Of a DNA stretch of 64,000 nucleotides, positions 3,399 to 15,317 are shown in pieces. This DNA is from a virus. Within the stretch, counting starts at the first letter, position 1. Each line of letters opens with the position of its first letter. Both the position numbers and the translations under genes were made by a program. The stretch lies in IMG/VR virus record IMGVR_UViG_3300027985_000661, positions 1 to 64,000 of that record; one strand, given 5' to 3'. Below the pieces are notes generated by a model, which saw only the letters and a list, made by a program, of their open reading frames with translations, was not told where the DNA came from and searched no databases.

Positions 3399-3974
3399 TT
3401 AATCTTCAATATCAGCGCTCGTACTCTCAGGTTTGATACCCAATCTTTCTAGTGCGAAAGCATATTGTTGAGCTACTGCTTCAGGTCTTTCTTCCAGAGT
3501 ACCTCTGTTGATGAAGAAACTAACCTCATTTCTTTCTACTCCATCTTTATCTGCATAAGATACTGGAGTTGGCATAACAATGAATTTACCCTCCATTTCC
3601 ATCTTAGTTACTGGAATAGGAATATAGTCACCATTGTTATCAGTTTTTTCTGCTACAAGAATACCTTTATTGTTCTCTGTAGCCCATTCAGGTTCGATAC
3701 ATTCATCAATTAACCATTGGAAATCATCAGCATCATGTAGATCAGATAATGTGTGAATCTTTCTACCTGCTGCTTTCTGGCCTCCTCTACGCACACCACC
3801 TACTGTATGTGTACCATTAGTTAATTCAATTACTACATACCTCATGTCTTTACCTGCATGTTTAGATAATGATTTTTTATCGTATGTATATTCTCTGATT
3901 ACATTTCCTGTTTTAGCTTCAGGGATAATCTTAATTCCGTAGACTTTGTAGTCTCCAATTACTGCATTTGCCAT
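3399..3974 (-). CDS. Abundant unknown protein, 191 aa
   Basis: ATG 3974 is the first leftward gene of the divergent region. The product begins MANAVIGDYKVYGIKIIPEA and contains a Gly/Arg patch (GGVRRGGQKAAGRK) and an acidic C-terminus. Codon choice stands out: many C-ending codons (TAC, GAC, ATC, TTC, CAC), like the major capsid gene and unlike neighbouring small genes, which predicts high expression. With its own control region and a hairpin behind it, it looks like an independent, strongly transcribed unit. A nucleic-acid-binding or virion role is possible, but I recognise no family. Confidence 0.72.
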   Translation of the reverse strand: MANAVIGDYKVYGIKIIPEAKTGNVIREYTYDKKSLSKHAGKDMRYVVIELTNGTHTVGGVRRGGQKAAGRKIHTLSDLHDADDFQWLIDECIEPEWATENNKGILVAEKTDNNGDYIPIPVTKMEMEGKFIVMPTPVSYADKDGVERNEVSFFINRGTLEERPEAVAQQYAFALERLGIKPESTSADIED

Positions 3975-4303
3975 AGCGTTTTATCTTTATATTATTAATA
4001 CTCAACTGAATTTGATACGGGGGTCTTCCATCCCCATTCCGCATAGGGGGCACTTGAATTATGGTGGCTTAGACATTCTGATATATATATATATATATAT
4101 ATAAAATTTGGCGGGGGTACTTTTATTATATTGGGTTAGGCACTCTAATATACATATATAAAAAAATTATAAAAAAAATTTTACAACACTGGTTACTCTA
4201 CCCCATGATTGGGGTCTCGGGGGTTGAGGAGCGAACGCAGTGAGAGGTAACTATATTAATACATATTCGTATAAAATAGTTAGTTAACTAAATTATAATT
4301 ATA
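3975..4303. promoter_or_regulatory. Divergent control region with duplicated AT-rich element
   Basis: This gene-free region lies between the leftward 191-aa gene and the rightward ferritin gene, so it must carry promoters for both directions. A ~23-nt element beginning TTAG occurs at 4069-4091 and again at 4136-4158 with four differences; each copy runs into alternating AT, and the first includes a (TA)n tract near 4079-4102. Hairpins are visible at 4017-4053 (GGGG with CCCC) and 4200-4214 (ACCCC with GGGGT). I could not fix -33/-7 elements of the Bacteroidota type with confidence. Confidence 0.5.
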
Positions 4304-4849
4304 ATGGAAAAACAGATTAAGTATAGAGTACCCTCTTCTATAACTAAAACTACAGGTAGTAAAGAGAGGCTATCTAAAGATATTAAGGATAAATTAAATA
4401 CTCAAATAGAGAATGAGCTATACGCAGCTCACTTATATAGATCAGCTTATATATGGGCGAAATTTAATGGGCTAACAGGGACAGCTAAATTTTTAGAGAA
4501 TGCCCCGGCAGAGGAAACAGGCCATGCTAATAAAGTATATAGTTATCTAATGGATAAAAATTGTATGCCTATTACTCCTGCTGTAAAAGCTCCTATTAAT
4601 GAATTTAAAGGTATAAAAGACATTATAGAAAAAGGGTATGAACATGAAATATTTGTAACAACCTCCTATAATGAATTAGCAGATTTGGCTTTAAAAAATA
4701 AAGACTATAGTACACTTGAGTTCGCACAATCTGTGTTAAAAGAACAAGTAGAGGAAGAGGCTAAATTTCTAGATATACTAGATAGGATAGAATTCTTAGA
4801 AAAAGAGGGAGTAGGACTATTAGAAATAGATCACGAATTGGGAGATTAA
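4304..4849 (+). CDS. FtnA-type ferritin (non-haem iron storage), 181 aa
   Basis: A four-helix ferritin. Ferritins oxidise Fe(II) at a dinuclear centre and store it as mineral in a 24-subunit shell. Every ferroxidase residue of E. coli FtnA is present at identical spacing (offset +21): E17 is E38, E50 and H53 are E71 and H74, E94 is E115, Q127 is Q148. The third-iron-site residues E49, E126, E129 and E130 correspond to E70, E147, E150 and E151. The ~21-residue N-terminal extension is basic and polar. It is the first rightward gene of the divergent region and is followed by a structured RNA. No inactivating change is visible, so an active enzyme is expected; it may buffer host iron or oxidative stress during infection (inference). 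Confidence 0.93.
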   Translation: MEKQIKYRVPSSITKTTGSKERLSKDIKDKLNTQIENELYAAHLYRSAYIWAKFNGLTGTAKFLENAPAEETGHANKVYSYLMDKNCMPITPAVKAPINEFKGIKDIIEKGYEHEIFVTTSYNELADLALKNKDYSTLEFAQSVLKEQVEEEAKFLDILDRIEFLEKEGVGLLEIDHELGD

Positions 4850-4856
4850 TTTCTCC

Positions 4857-4869
4857 CTTTTGTAACCTT
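4857..4869 (+). promoter_or_regulatory. Shared motif TTTTGTAACCTTT, promoter candidate
   Basis: The 12-mer TTTTGTAACCTT occurs here just upstream of the structured RNA and again at 7610-7621 just upstream of the GroES-like gene. Both copies sit in gene-free sequence ahead of a new rightward unit. TTTG resembles the -33 box of Bacteroidota promoters, but a matching -7 box was not clear. Confidence 0.35.
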
Positions 4870-4880
4870 TATTTTTACTG

Positions 4881-5228
4881 TTCGTAAACACATAATTAGA
4901 AACTGAAGCATAAGATACTTCAGCGACTAGCGTTTAAAGTTCTCTTATAGTAGGGACACGATAAACTTCACTAACCTAATAAAAGATGGAAGAGTGTTGG
5001 ATCAGGCAAATTATCTACTGCATAAGTTCTGCTCTTACCGCCTTAACCGAGTAAGACAATACTGAAGGAGCAGGAGGTCGAGCATTTAGCTCCCTCGTAG
5101 GGAATTCACAAACCATGGGGGGACAAGGGTTTTCTTTTTTAGTACGTTCTAGTAATACTCCTGTTGTACTAGGACTACACTAACACCTTAACTTCCTTGG
5201 TTGTTAGTATTAATGCATGTTATGCGAA
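4881..5228 (+). ncRNA. Structured non-coding RNA of ~350 nt, unknown class
   Basis: No ORF of useful length lies in 4850-5316 on either strand. The ends pair: TTCGTAAACA (4881-4890) with TGTTATGCGAA (5218-5228, one bulge). Inside are CTGAAG/CTTCAG (4903-4908, 4918-4923) and TGCTC/GAGCA (5030-5034, 5068-5072) continuing into TTAC/GTAA. Then come GAGC/GCTC (5080-5083, 5089-5092), TCCCT/AGGGA (5091-5095, 5099-5103), a 9-bp stem (5146-5154 with 5167-5175, one G-U) and another 9-bp stem with a bulge (5179-5187 with 5199-5208). A promoter-like motif precedes it and an intrinsic terminator follows. I tested by eye for tRNA, tmRNA, RNase P and group I/II core motifs and found none. Confidence 0.6.
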
Positions 5229-5253
5229 TTAAAATAATATTAAAAAAAATAAT

Positions 5254-5280
5254 GGAATAAATTGAAACTTATTCCTTTTT
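5254..5280 (+). terminator. Intrinsic terminator after the structured RNA
   Basis: GGAATAA (5254-5260) pairs perfectly with TTATTCC (5269-5275) across an 8-nt loop and is followed by TTTTTATTT. It ends the transcript containing the structured RNA before the next gene at 5317. Confidence 0.72.
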
Positions 5281-5316
5281 ATTTCGTTATATAGTTATAA
5301 TTAAAATATAACTCTT

Positions 5317-5493: not shown

Positions 5494-5666
5494 GAAATAA
5501 AGATAAAAAATGTATAAATTATTACGACTGTGATTCGTATAGTACAGACATTAAAAATGCAATACAAGAGTACCTAAAAAGTACGACAGAATGCAATACT
5601 TTAAAAATAGCACATAATTTATATAACGATACTGAAATTGTATATAATGTACGAACCGAAGAGTGA
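5490..5666 (+). CDS. Hypothetical protein, 58 aa
   Basis: ATG overlaps the preceding stop (ATGA). The product is acidic and polar, with three Cys (C8, C14, C38) but no paired zinc motif. Central helix around DIKNAIQEYLKSTTE. It overlaps the next gene by 20 nt. No family recognised. Confidence 0.52.
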   Translation: MRNKDKKCINYYDCDSYSTDIKNAIQEYLKSTTECNTLKIAHNLYNDTEIVYNVRTEE

Positions 5667-5994
5667 GCTACCTTATGAAACATTAACCCCTTCTCAAGTA
5701 AGGGAAATAGAGAACCTGGACAGATTACCAATCCCCTACTCCCAGTTACCCATCCGACCAAACTCTAAAATAGAAATAGAAGAGGAAATAATTAAGGGTA
5801 AAAAATGGACAGTTTATTATTATACTGTAAATGATTGGGATACCTACTTAAGAGTTAAAGTAAACGGCGCCACTATTAAATATGTGGAATATAAACAAGG
5901 TATCAGGGTCGTACCTACCTCCCCTATTATAGAAGATCCATTAATAAACGAAATATTAGAACTTATAGACGATGATCAAAACTTACCCTATTAA
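5647..5994 (+). CDS. Hypothetical protein, 115 aa
   Basis: I chose ATG 5647 over the in-frame TTG at 5638. The N-terminal third is Pro-rich and extended (PYSQLPIRPNSKIEIEEE); the middle has clear beta strands (KWTVYYYTVNDWDTYLRVKV, GATIKYVEYKQGIRVVP); the C-terminus is an acidic helix. A small beta-sandwich or barrel is likely. No family recognised. Confidence 0.6.
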   Translation: MYEPKSELPYETLTPSQVREIENLDRLPIPYSQLPIRPNSKIEIEEEIIKGKKWTVYYYTVNDWDTYLRVKVNGATIKYVEYKQGIRVVPTSPIIEDPLINEILELIDDDQNLPY

Positions 5995-6253
5995 AATATT
6001 CTATGAAAATAGTTTAGAAAAACTAGTTTACGGAGATAAAGTAGTAAATCTTAAGAACAATGGAGCAAGGGGCAGAATATACGGCCCCGCCCCTAAAAAC
6101 GATGATATGAGAGAATGGAGGCCTTTTGTGTACGCTTTAAGCGAAAGTGGATATGAAAAACATTCTAAGGAATGGGAGAATGATATAATAAACTCAGTTT
6201 TAGATAATTTAAAAGGAACCGATTTTAGTAAAATAACTAATATACTTTATTAA
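5972..6253 (+). CDS. Hypothetical protein, 93 aa
   Basis: Overlaps the previous gene by 23 nt. The product starts MIKTYPIKIFYENSLEKLVY and has a Gly/Arg/Pro loop (NNGARGRIYGPAPKNDD) before a Trp-rich helical part (MREWRPFVYALSESGYEK, SKEWENDII). No family recognised. Its TAA overlaps the ATG of the next gene by one base. Confidence 0.58.
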   Translation: MIKTYPIKIFYENSLEKLVYGDKVVNLKNNGARGRIYGPAPKNDDMREWRPFVYALSESGYEKHSKEWENDIINSVLDNLKGTDFSKITNILY

Positions 6254-7667: not shown

Positions 7668-8012
7668 ATGGTAAGTAAAAAAGTAAAGAACTTCGAGGAT
7701 TTAGAAAATATAATCCTTAGAAACGGCGTCATTTTAGTAAAAGCCGTAAATAAAAAACCTAAATCTAATATTGTCCTAACCAATGACTTAGGGTCCCCAA
7801 TAGAAGAGACAAACAGTGCTGTTTTTGACTATGCAATAATCGTTAATGCAAACGGATCTTCTAAATATAAAAATGGAGATATAGTAGTAGTCGCTAACTT
7901 TAGTACATTAGATGCTATAGCTATGAAGAATGCTGAAGATACTACTTATATTGTATTGCCAGAATATAATATTAGTTTGGCCGTTAAACCTGAAAATTTT
8001 AATTTTAATTAA
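7668..8012 (+). CDS. GroES-like co-chaperonin candidate, 114 aa
   Basis: The pattern follows GroES: an N-terminal strand (NGVILVKAVNKKPKSNIVL), a mobile-loop-like polar insertion, KYKNGDIVVVANF where GroES has the VKVGDKV strand, and a C-terminal strand TYIVLPEYNISLAVK where GroES has EYLILREDDILAV. Length is close to GroES (~97 aa). Phages such as T4 (Gp31) encode their own co-chaperonin for capsid folding, so the role would fit. The match is by eye and lacks a decisive motif; a generic small beta-barrel is the alternative. Confidence 0.5.
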   Translation: MVSKKVKNFEDLENIILRNGVILVKAVNKKPKSNIVLTNDLGSPIEETNSAVFDYAIIVNANGSSKYKNGDIVVVANFSTLDAIAMKNAEDTTYIVLPEYNISLAVKPENFNFN

Positions 8013-12989: not shown

Positions 12990-15317
12990 ATGAGTCCAAA
13001 CACAAATCCTAGTGTAGTACCTCATCAAAAACTTTCGCTAAAAGAAAAGAATAAAGAGTGGAGAGAGGCCACTGTAAATTCTTATATAAGTAAATACTAC
13101 TTCGGTGGCAATAATCGTATACAGCGAAAAGAGGAGATGAAAATAGCTTACGATTTGTACAATGGGGTATTCAATGAAAAAGATCTTAAGTATGTTACAG
13201 ATCCTTATAAAGTTGAAGATTCGTTCCCTGCTGCATTGCAGAATATGAATGTTATAAAACCTAAAATTGATTTATTATTAGGAGAACAATCAGGGATGCC
13301 CGATAGTATGATAGTAGCACAAACAAATGAGGAAGCTACAACTAGACTACAAGAGAAGTATAACGAACTTCTAAAAAAGGCTACTATGGAATTAGTTTCG
13401 CAAGGCGGACCTAATGATCCAGTAACAGATAAGGATTTAGATTATTTAGAACAGATAGGTACTTATATGACGAGGGACTTTTCCGATACAGGGGAACAGC
13501 TTGCATATCATATACTTAACTATTTAAAAGAAAAAGAAAACATAAAAGAGAAATTCTTTAAAGGTTTTCAGGATTTACTAATTGCTAGTATGGCTGTTTT
13601 TTATAATGGACAGTCTAATGGCGAACCTATTTTTGAAAGGGTAAATCCCCTACAGTTCAGCTTCGATTATAGTCCTGAAGTTGAATATATAGAAGATGGA
13701 GAATGGGCGTGTAGAAGAATGCGGATGACTCCTTCAGCTATATATGATAGATTTTATGACCTAATGGACGAGCGTCAATTAGACGAATTGTTATCTCGTT
13801 TTAATAGCGGGTCTTCTGAAAGAGGGGCAAACAATGAATTCAAAGCTTTATACTGGAGAAACATTCCTACTACTGATTTTAACGATAGTGATAATTTTAC
13901 AAGCAATACTATAGATGTATGGCACGTAGTATGGAAATCATTTAAAAAAGTAGGCTTTATAACGTACACTGACGATGATGGCGAGGTGCAACAAGATGTT
14001 GTAGACGAAACTTATAAACCATCTGCTAATGAAGAGATTTATTGGGATTGGGTAACTGAAGTATGGGAAGGGTATAGAATAGGGCATGATTTATTTATAG
14101 GCATTCAGCCTATAGCAGAGCAGTCTATATCAATAGATAATCCGAATAGCAATAAGTTGCCATATAGCGGTATAGTTTATAATAACAATAATACTGCCCC
14201 TAAATCTTTAGTAGAGATAATGAAGCCGTTGCAGTATATGTATATTGTAGTATGGTATAGGTTAGAGACTGCATTAGCTAGAGATAAAGGTAAAGTATTA
14301 AATGTTGATATAACTCAAATACCGGTATCTATGGGAGTAGATACTAATAAATGGTTACATTATTTATCTTCTGCCGGTGTTAATTTTATAAATCCTTACG
14401 AAGATGGATGGGATATACCAGGTAGGGAAGGCGGCAAACCTTCTGCTTTTAATCAGTTTTCTTCTCAAGATTTGACAATGTCGAATGTTATCATTGAGTA
14501 TATAAACTTAATGAACAAGATAGAAGAAATGATAGGGGAATTATCAGGGGTATCTAGGCAACGGCAAGGTCAGGTGCAGACTAGCGAGTTAGTAGGCAAT
14601 GTTCAACAAACTATAATACAATCGTCGCATATTACTAAAGGGTTGTTTTTTGCATATAGTCAAGTTAAAAAGAGAGCACTTAATAATTTATTAAATAGTG
14701 CCAAGAACATTTATAAGAACTCTGGTAAAAAGAAGTTGCATTATTTTACCGACGACATGACTAGGGTTTTTATGGATATTACTGATGACTTTTTATTTTC
14801 TGATTTTGATATCTTTATTACAGATAGCACTAAAGAAAATCAAGATTTAGAAATGCTAAGACAGTTATACCAACCTGCTATGCAAAATGGAGCATCCCTA
14901 CTTGATATTGCAGAAATAGCTTCCTCTACTAATATGACGGATATTAAAACCAAATTAGATAGGATAGAAAAACAAAGAAAACAACAAGAAATGCAAATGG
15001 TAGAAGCTCAGCAGCAGGCACAAACTGAGGCAGCGGCTATACAATCGCAAATGCAACAAGCTCAAATGCAACTTGAATTGGAAAAACTACGAGTAGATGA
15101 GGCCGATTCTATTAGGAGGGCAGAGACTGCTATACAAGTTGCTTTAATAAATGCAAGTAAAACAAATGAAGTAAAAGATACTTCTGTCCCTGATCTGGAT
15201 ATTAAAAAGTTTGATGAGGAATCCAAACTTAAAAGAGATCAGTTAAATGAACAAATTAGACACAATAAAGCTACTGAGTCAATCAGTAAGATAAAATCAA
15301 ATTCTAGTACTAAGTAA
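12990..15317 (+). CDS. Portal protein, 775 aa
   Basis: The dodecameric ring through which DNA enters and leaves the head. It lies between TerL and the scaffold-like gene, as in crAss-like phages. Typical features are the N-terminal NSYISKYYFGGNNRIQRKEE and LLLGEQSGMPDS segments, a middle strand/helix clip-stem region (LVEIMKPLQYMYIVVWYRLE), and a C-terminal Gln-rich helical barrel (residues ~660-715, e.g. QQQAQTEAAAIQSQMQQAQM). The long Gln-rich C-terminus matches a barrel extending into the head. Confidence 0.93.
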   Translation: MSPNTNPSVVPHQKLSLKEKNKEWREATVNSYISKYYFGGNNRIQRKEEMKIAYDLYNGVFNEKDLKYVTDPYKVEDSFPAALQNMNVIKPKIDLLLGEQSGMPDSMIVAQTNEEATTRLQEKYNELLKKATMELVSQGGPNDPVTDKDLDYLEQIGTYMTRDFSDTGEQLAYHILNYLKEKENIKEKFFKGFQDLLIASMAVFYNGQSNGEPIFERVNPLQFSFDYSPEVEYIEDGEWACRRMRMTPSAIYDRFYDLMDERQLDELLSRFNSGSSERGANNEFKALYWRNIPTTDFNDSDNFTSNTIDVWHVVWKSFKKVGFITYTDDDGEVQQDVVDETYKPSANEEIYWDWVTEVWEGYRIGHDLFIGIQPIAEQSISIDNPNSNKLPYSGIVYNNNNTAPKSLVEIMKPLQYMYIVVWYRLETALARDKGKVLNVDITQIPVSMGVDTNKWLHYLSSAGVNFINPYEDGWDIPGREGGKPSAFNQFSSQDLTMSNVIIEYINLMNKIEEMIGELSGVSRQRQGQVQTSELVGNVQQTIIQSSHITKGLFFAYSQVKKRALNNLLNSAKNIYKNSGKKKLHYFTDDMTRVFMDITDDFLFSDFDIFITDSTKENQDLEMLRQLYQPAMQNGASLLDIAEIASSTNMTDIKTKLDRIEKQRKQQEMQMVEAQQQAQTEAAAIQSQMQQAQMQLELEKLRVDEADSIRRAETAIQVALINASKTNEVKDTSVPDLDIKKFDEESKLKRDQLNEQIRHNKATESISKIKSNSSTK

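Follow-up and report, generated by a model that had tools for sequence, protein, structure and literature searches.

Between two genes of a crAss-like phage, downstream of one for a ferritin-like protein, lies a stretch of DNA with almost no coding capacity, and the question that it raises is whether it encodes an RNA and, if so, what that RNA might do. The window analysed comprises the first 64,000 nucleotides of a virus record of 96,402 bases (IMGVR_UViG_3300027985_000661). Judged by its terminase, which is 58% identical to that of the Crassvirales phage cr118_1, the window phage is crAss-like. A first-pass annotation had proposed that the gap contains an unassigned structured RNA, about 350 nt long, with a promoter and a terminator to itself, and had named an Rfam search and a covariation test on homologues as checks. 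Of this proposal, the unassigned structured RNA and its dedicated promoter are supported here, on other grounds, namely conserved position, a conserved core, covariation and promoters. Comparison among phage genomes establishes positions 4959-5017 as a conserved RNA element that is preceded by promoters, is mostly present as a single strong copy, and has a known location and spread.

The gap and its surroundings

The gap is bounded by the ferritin-like gene (4304-4849) and by small ORFs from 5317 on, where the rightward gene arm begins. It had been described as 468 nt free of ORFs on both strands; the 467 nt from 4850 to 5316 indeed hold no ORF of at least 40 aa, but on the minus strand the margin of a weak ORF with a TTG start intrudes. 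The GC content of the gap stretch is 0.39-0.44 versus 0.32 in the flanks. The ferritin-like protein (Pfam PF00210, 7e-28) is encoded by a gene with its own promoter and terminator. A TA microsatellite is located at 4083-4104, where the two gene arms diverge. A 22-aa peptide ORF at about 4988 was considered and rejected: reading of the sequences revealed a stop at that place in one relative (L045) and no ATG in another (L018).

With Rfam 15, no family was found at the element at the gathering cut-off, the only matches elsewhere being tRNAs, and the E-value mode gave no credible match; the check named beforehand thus returned no known class. The absence of tRNA and tmRNA from the gap is confirmed by ARAGORN and Rfam, and that of group I or group II intron and RNase P signatures by the lack of any Rfam match there.

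Other parts of the first-pass annotation have not stood. The "seven or more helices" were offered as evidence of structure, but the folding energy is at chance level (z -1.44, with 10 of 100 shuffles equally good, and -1.3; z -1.62 for the fold of 4897-5283 versus shuffled sequence). With so ordinary an energy, helices picked out by eye carry no weight as evidence. The helix said to join both ends (4881-4890 with 5218-5228) is also doubtful, since its 5' arm takes in the second box (CGTA, 4883-4886) of a promoter that is conserved among relatives, and this arm is therefore probably not transcribed.

Table 1. Features of the RNA locus in the window (all on the + strand).
Feature	Positions	Strand	Description
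Intrinsic terminator for the ferritin-like gene upstream	4840..4857	+	Terminator scan: 6 bp stem and T-run; strong; parts this gene from the RNA gene
Promoter of the RNA	4858..4893	+	TTTTGTAACC (4858-4867) ... CGTA (4883-4886)
Conserved core (models R1, R2)	4959..5017	+	R1 53.1 bits, R2 59.6 bits; both models included the window sequence in training, so these scores are not independent evidence
P1 hairpin	4964..4998	+	4964-4966/4996-4998, UUC bulge 4967-4969, 4970-4972/4993-4995; covariation in 31 aligned, 8 crAss-like and 41 non-redundant sequences
Conserved GGAUCAGGCA, probably single-stranded	4999..5008	+	Family GGAUCAG-RYA; alignments A4, A8
P2, likely	5018..5073	+	CUGC 5018-5021 with GCAG 5070-5073; inner helix 5033-5038/5051-5056
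P3 hairpin GAGC/GCUC, directly after P2	5080..5092	+	Read from sequence
Conserved G block GGGAAUUCACAAACCAUGGGGGGACAAG	5099..5126	+	Family GGGnGGGAUA; seen in crAss-like RNAs by eye, unscored
Probable intrinsic terminator	5254..5281	+	GGAATAA/TTATTCC and T-run; read from sequence; weak stem

Relatives of the core and covariation in P1

Two features were looked for in a new RNA family, covariation in P1 and a promoter of its own. A terminase-alignment scan provided 80 loci, among which a profile of the gap matched L026 (E 3e-5) and, more weakly, L018 and L045, in every case over the same 40-nt segment upstream of the terminase gene. Promoter-anchored inspection added L021, L036, L042 and L068. 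L027 was contributed by model R2, for which 8 crAss-like copies were the sole training set (E 1.5e-6; model E-values are rough). The crAss-like RNAs therefore total nine, that of the window and those of eight phages carrying the hairpin and GGAUCAG at the same place, upstream of the terminase. The same R2 model recovers members in phages that are not crAss-like, i.e. L119 (1.5e-5), L117, L129, L144, L209, L141 and L116.

A search of IMG/VR with the exact core pattern, extended by three bases, returned 69 stretches that reduce to 41 non-redundant sequences. Many matches lie outside coding sequence, in phages of quite another kind. Those of L202, L282, L289 and L296 lie in long open frames and are probably due to chance; since a few of the 41 are of this kind, credible family members number roughly 30. 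The pattern fixed the core, including GGATCAG in the non-crAss hits, so the invariance of the core proves nothing. The two P1 pairs left free by the search are informative: they are formed in 39 and 34 of the 41 sequences (22 and 20 in shuffles) and, among 31 aligned sequences, in 31/31 and 30/31, with five pair types each. The crAss-like set alone (8 sequences, found by other routes) also covaries in P1. Covariation in P1 is thus seen in three sequence sets, and the first of the two family features is present.

The P1 consensus is AAC-UUC bulge-A-NN...NN-U-GUU, followed by GGAUCAG. Among the crAss-like relatives the common core reads AACUUCA-N-UGUUGGAUCAG, and the GGAUCAGGCA element varies as GGA[UCA]CAG. 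Their anatomy comprises, from 5' to 3', P1, GGAUCAGG, the CUG...CAGG helix P2, an adjoining P3, and the G block GGGAAUUCA...GGGnGGGAUA. An equivalent of P2 (CUGN...NCAGG) is present in most of these RNAs, for instance with a CAGUC/GACUG flip in L042 and as CUGA/UCAG in L027; taken in each sequence separately, the stem does not reach significance and is suggestive only. At the place of P3, reading of the other crAss-like RNAs reveals a hairpin of differing sequence. Both P2 and P3 rest on nine sequences, and no counterpart of the window's 3' part (5130-5230) was seen in relatives. Firm support is limited to P1, and the window's RNA lacks support over its 3' third.

Behind the core, several small phages have a G-run and a long U/C tract, which together are terminator-like. 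A G-run and a pyrimidine tract of about 50 nt (UUUUUCUUUUCUUUUUC) after the hairpin were observed in L090, L096, L102, L120, L124, L125, L128, L137, L144 and L146; this tract is conserved regardless of the direction of the neighbouring genes.

Promoters and extent of the transcript

The promoter-like motif noticed ahead of the RNA is genuine in so far as its class, GTAACC-N-CGTA, is conserved in crAss-like relatives. The form GTAAC[C]-N-CGTA is located by pattern 100-175 nt upstream of the core in 8/9 crAss-like loci, compared with 5/1800 shuffles; in the ninth (L027) a promoter can be read at 6159, some 150 nt ahead of a core that lies at about 6309. Outside the crAss-like group, the Bacteroidetes -7 box TAnnTTTG lies within 100 nt upstream in 25/34 loci, where 2.8 are expected and 2 are found on the reverse strand. 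The second family feature, a promoter of its own, is therefore present in both groups of phages.

In the window, the same promoter class also precedes the ferritin gene (4247) and an ORF at 7668. More generally, the strong motif TTTTGTAACCTTTTT-N-CGTATAATA is common to metagenomic crAss-like phages (window 4247, 4862 and 7614; L014, L016, L018, L026, L036, L045, L047, L067 and others), mostly ahead of genes, and possibly represents a phage-specific promoter class.

Transcription of the window RNA is predicted to start at about 4893-4900. As to the terminator, a hairpin and a T-run do exist at 5254-5281, but the stem has only 2 G-C pairs and was not reported by the terminator scan. The proposed length of about 350 nt can be refined accordingly: the conserved RNA spans about 4893-5126, and the transcript would reach about 390 nt if it ended at the weak terminator near 5281, both ends being predicted positions.

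The reading of the gap as variable intergenic DNA, conserved by chance, fits the ordinary folding energy and the fact that the bare pattern scan also returns coding matches. Against it stand the relatives, the covariation, the promoters and the recovery of members by R2, which refute it for the 4959-5017 core, and its overall probability is close to negligible.

Distribution among phages and bacteria

Most of the whole records contain one strong copy of the RNA; two are present in G025. Carriers include crAss-like phages and small phages whose genes run in one direction, and no protein family is common to all the RNA-bearing genomes compared. They appear to infect Bacteroidota, an assignment based on gene content and the -7 box.

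Several searches were negative; the collections may omit close relatives. BLAST of the whole gap against isolates and BLAST of the core gave chance matches only, the route through the ferritin protein led to no related loci, and no credible match was found in the isolates phi14:2, Panino, PT33, ten other Cellulophaga, Maribacter and Polaribacter phages, cr118_1 and cr52_1. A match in phi46:3 was discarded as a family member because it falls within a coding gene. A narrow literature search found no paper on such an RNA.

Among bacteria, the pattern occurs only in two related Cryomorphaceae MAGs, and the model finds the RNA in 0/86 other Cryomorphaceae genomes and in 1/395 Bacteroidota genomes. 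This near absence led us to reject the reading of the RNA as a host gene. In the two MAGs (L213/L214, first 1.8 kb) the RNA is situated downstream of a tRNA gene at a contig end. tRNA genes are common integration sites, and the position is possibly the edge of an integrated element.

Orientation and possible function

In most lineages the RNA lies directly ahead of an operon on the same strand. However, G011, G012, G022 and their relatives (L123, L128, L137, L146 and L171) carry it antisense to the genes beside it, as does L116; in G011, G012 and G022 it opposes genes that all run one way. The RNA of L310/L302 is probably antisense to its neighbours too. Opposition to neighbouring genes is thus found in at least two lineages and probably in a third, and this speaks for a small RNA that acts in trans rather than for an operon leader.

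A cis-acting leader would allow RNA polymerase to read through the terminator behind it in a late or early operon, as in HK022 put, lambda nut and lambda pR'-6S RNA-tR'. P1 is close to where the predicted transcripts begin, the RNA opens the right arm in crAss-like genomes and precedes the first operon gene in many other phages, terminator-like hairpins lie between RNA and gene at several loci, and in the window a strict search finds no further + strand promoter after that of the RNA until 7614. This arrangement is at odds with the orientation of the RNA in the L123/L128/L137/L146 group, in L116 and, with respect to all genes, in G011 and G012. It also fails to account for L026, where the gene downstream has its own promoter and a terminator can be seen between it and the RNA, or for L141, where a TATATTTG box precedes the next gene. 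We consider a leader function unlikely, though it is the strongest of the alternatives.

Another possibility is a transcript that primes replication from an R-loop origin, with the G block stabilising the hybrid. The usual single copy per genome, the orientation independent of genes, the G-rich blocks and the proximity to the GC-skew minimum of several large genomes would agree with such a primer. Nevertheless, divergent gene arms explain the skew minimum, and the skew is unchanged at the element in the single-direction genomes G010, G011, G012, G014, G015 and G022, which makes this role improbable. Still less probable, to the point of being hardly credible, is a mimic or sponge of rRNA. It draws on the resemblance of GUUGGAUCA to the 16S 3' end of some bacteria, whereas the 16S ends with CGGCTGGAATACCTCC in the one Bacteroidota genome checked and the longest words shared with, or complementary to, its 16S/23S are of 7-8 nt.

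For the window, the reading that we favour is a phage small RNA gene (4893 to about 5281, + strand) acting in trans with a host partner, and we regard the chances for and against it as evenly balanced. The RNA would be transcribed from its own promoter (4858-4893) and would fold into P1 followed by GGAUCAG, to which crAss-like phages would add two hairpins and a G-rich block; the transcript would probably end at the terminator near 5281. P1 and GGAUCAG could constitute a binding site for a conserved Bacteroidota host factor, candidates being RNA polymerase, an RNA-binding protein, a nuclease or a defence component, which the phage may recruit or sequester during infection. A host partner is the best inference because the RNA-bearing phages share no protein. 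A broader proposal, made somewhat more tentatively, is that a small RNA shared horizontally across Bacteroidota phages, crAss-like and small unidirectional ones without common proteins, targets a conserved host component in trans as a general RNA-based tool for host takeover or counter-defence.

Comparison with known phage RNAs

That crAss-like and marine phages carry a conserved hairpin, usually in a single copy and with a promoter of its own, suggests that they have a host target in common, and to our knowledge few RNAs are common to phages without shared proteins. R1 and R2 are concrete models for searching phage-infection transcriptomes, and the results indicate that crAss-like genomes contain unannotated RNA genes.

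Other RNAs are found in crAss-like phages. For instance, cr52_1 (L011) carries RAGATH-20 (2501-2603), RAGATH-9 (3843-3996), a hatchet ribozyme (5606-5731), a tmRNA (1795-2175) and a tRNA with anticodon CTA (13911-13986). The RAGATH and hatchet RNAs belong to different families and have no match in the window. The tmRNA was found only in cr52_1, and the group I intron model finds one intron in cr118_1. The terminase frame of cr52_1 has several in-frame stops with table 11, which suggests stop-codon recoding.

Lambda pR'-6S RNA and HK022 put RNA are short structured transcripts that have a promoter to themselves and often precede an operon and its terminator. In a comparison of context only, the window RNA family resembles them as a short structured transcript with its own promoter and a frequent place ahead of an operon; unlike them, it opposes the neighbouring genes in several lineages. 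Among larger RNAs, GOLLD and ROOL occur in phages or prophages. Both are known structured non-coding RNAs (PMC12286853), and the first-pass claim that a large phage non-coding RNA would be new is therefore wrong as a concept, although the present RNA family is absent from Rfam 15. The window RNA is likewise a structured non-coding RNA, but it is much smaller than GOLLD and ROOL and has no Rfam match. Phage structured RNAs are already known as a kind; the novelty lies in a small RNA family that occurs across unrelated phages of Bacteroidota.
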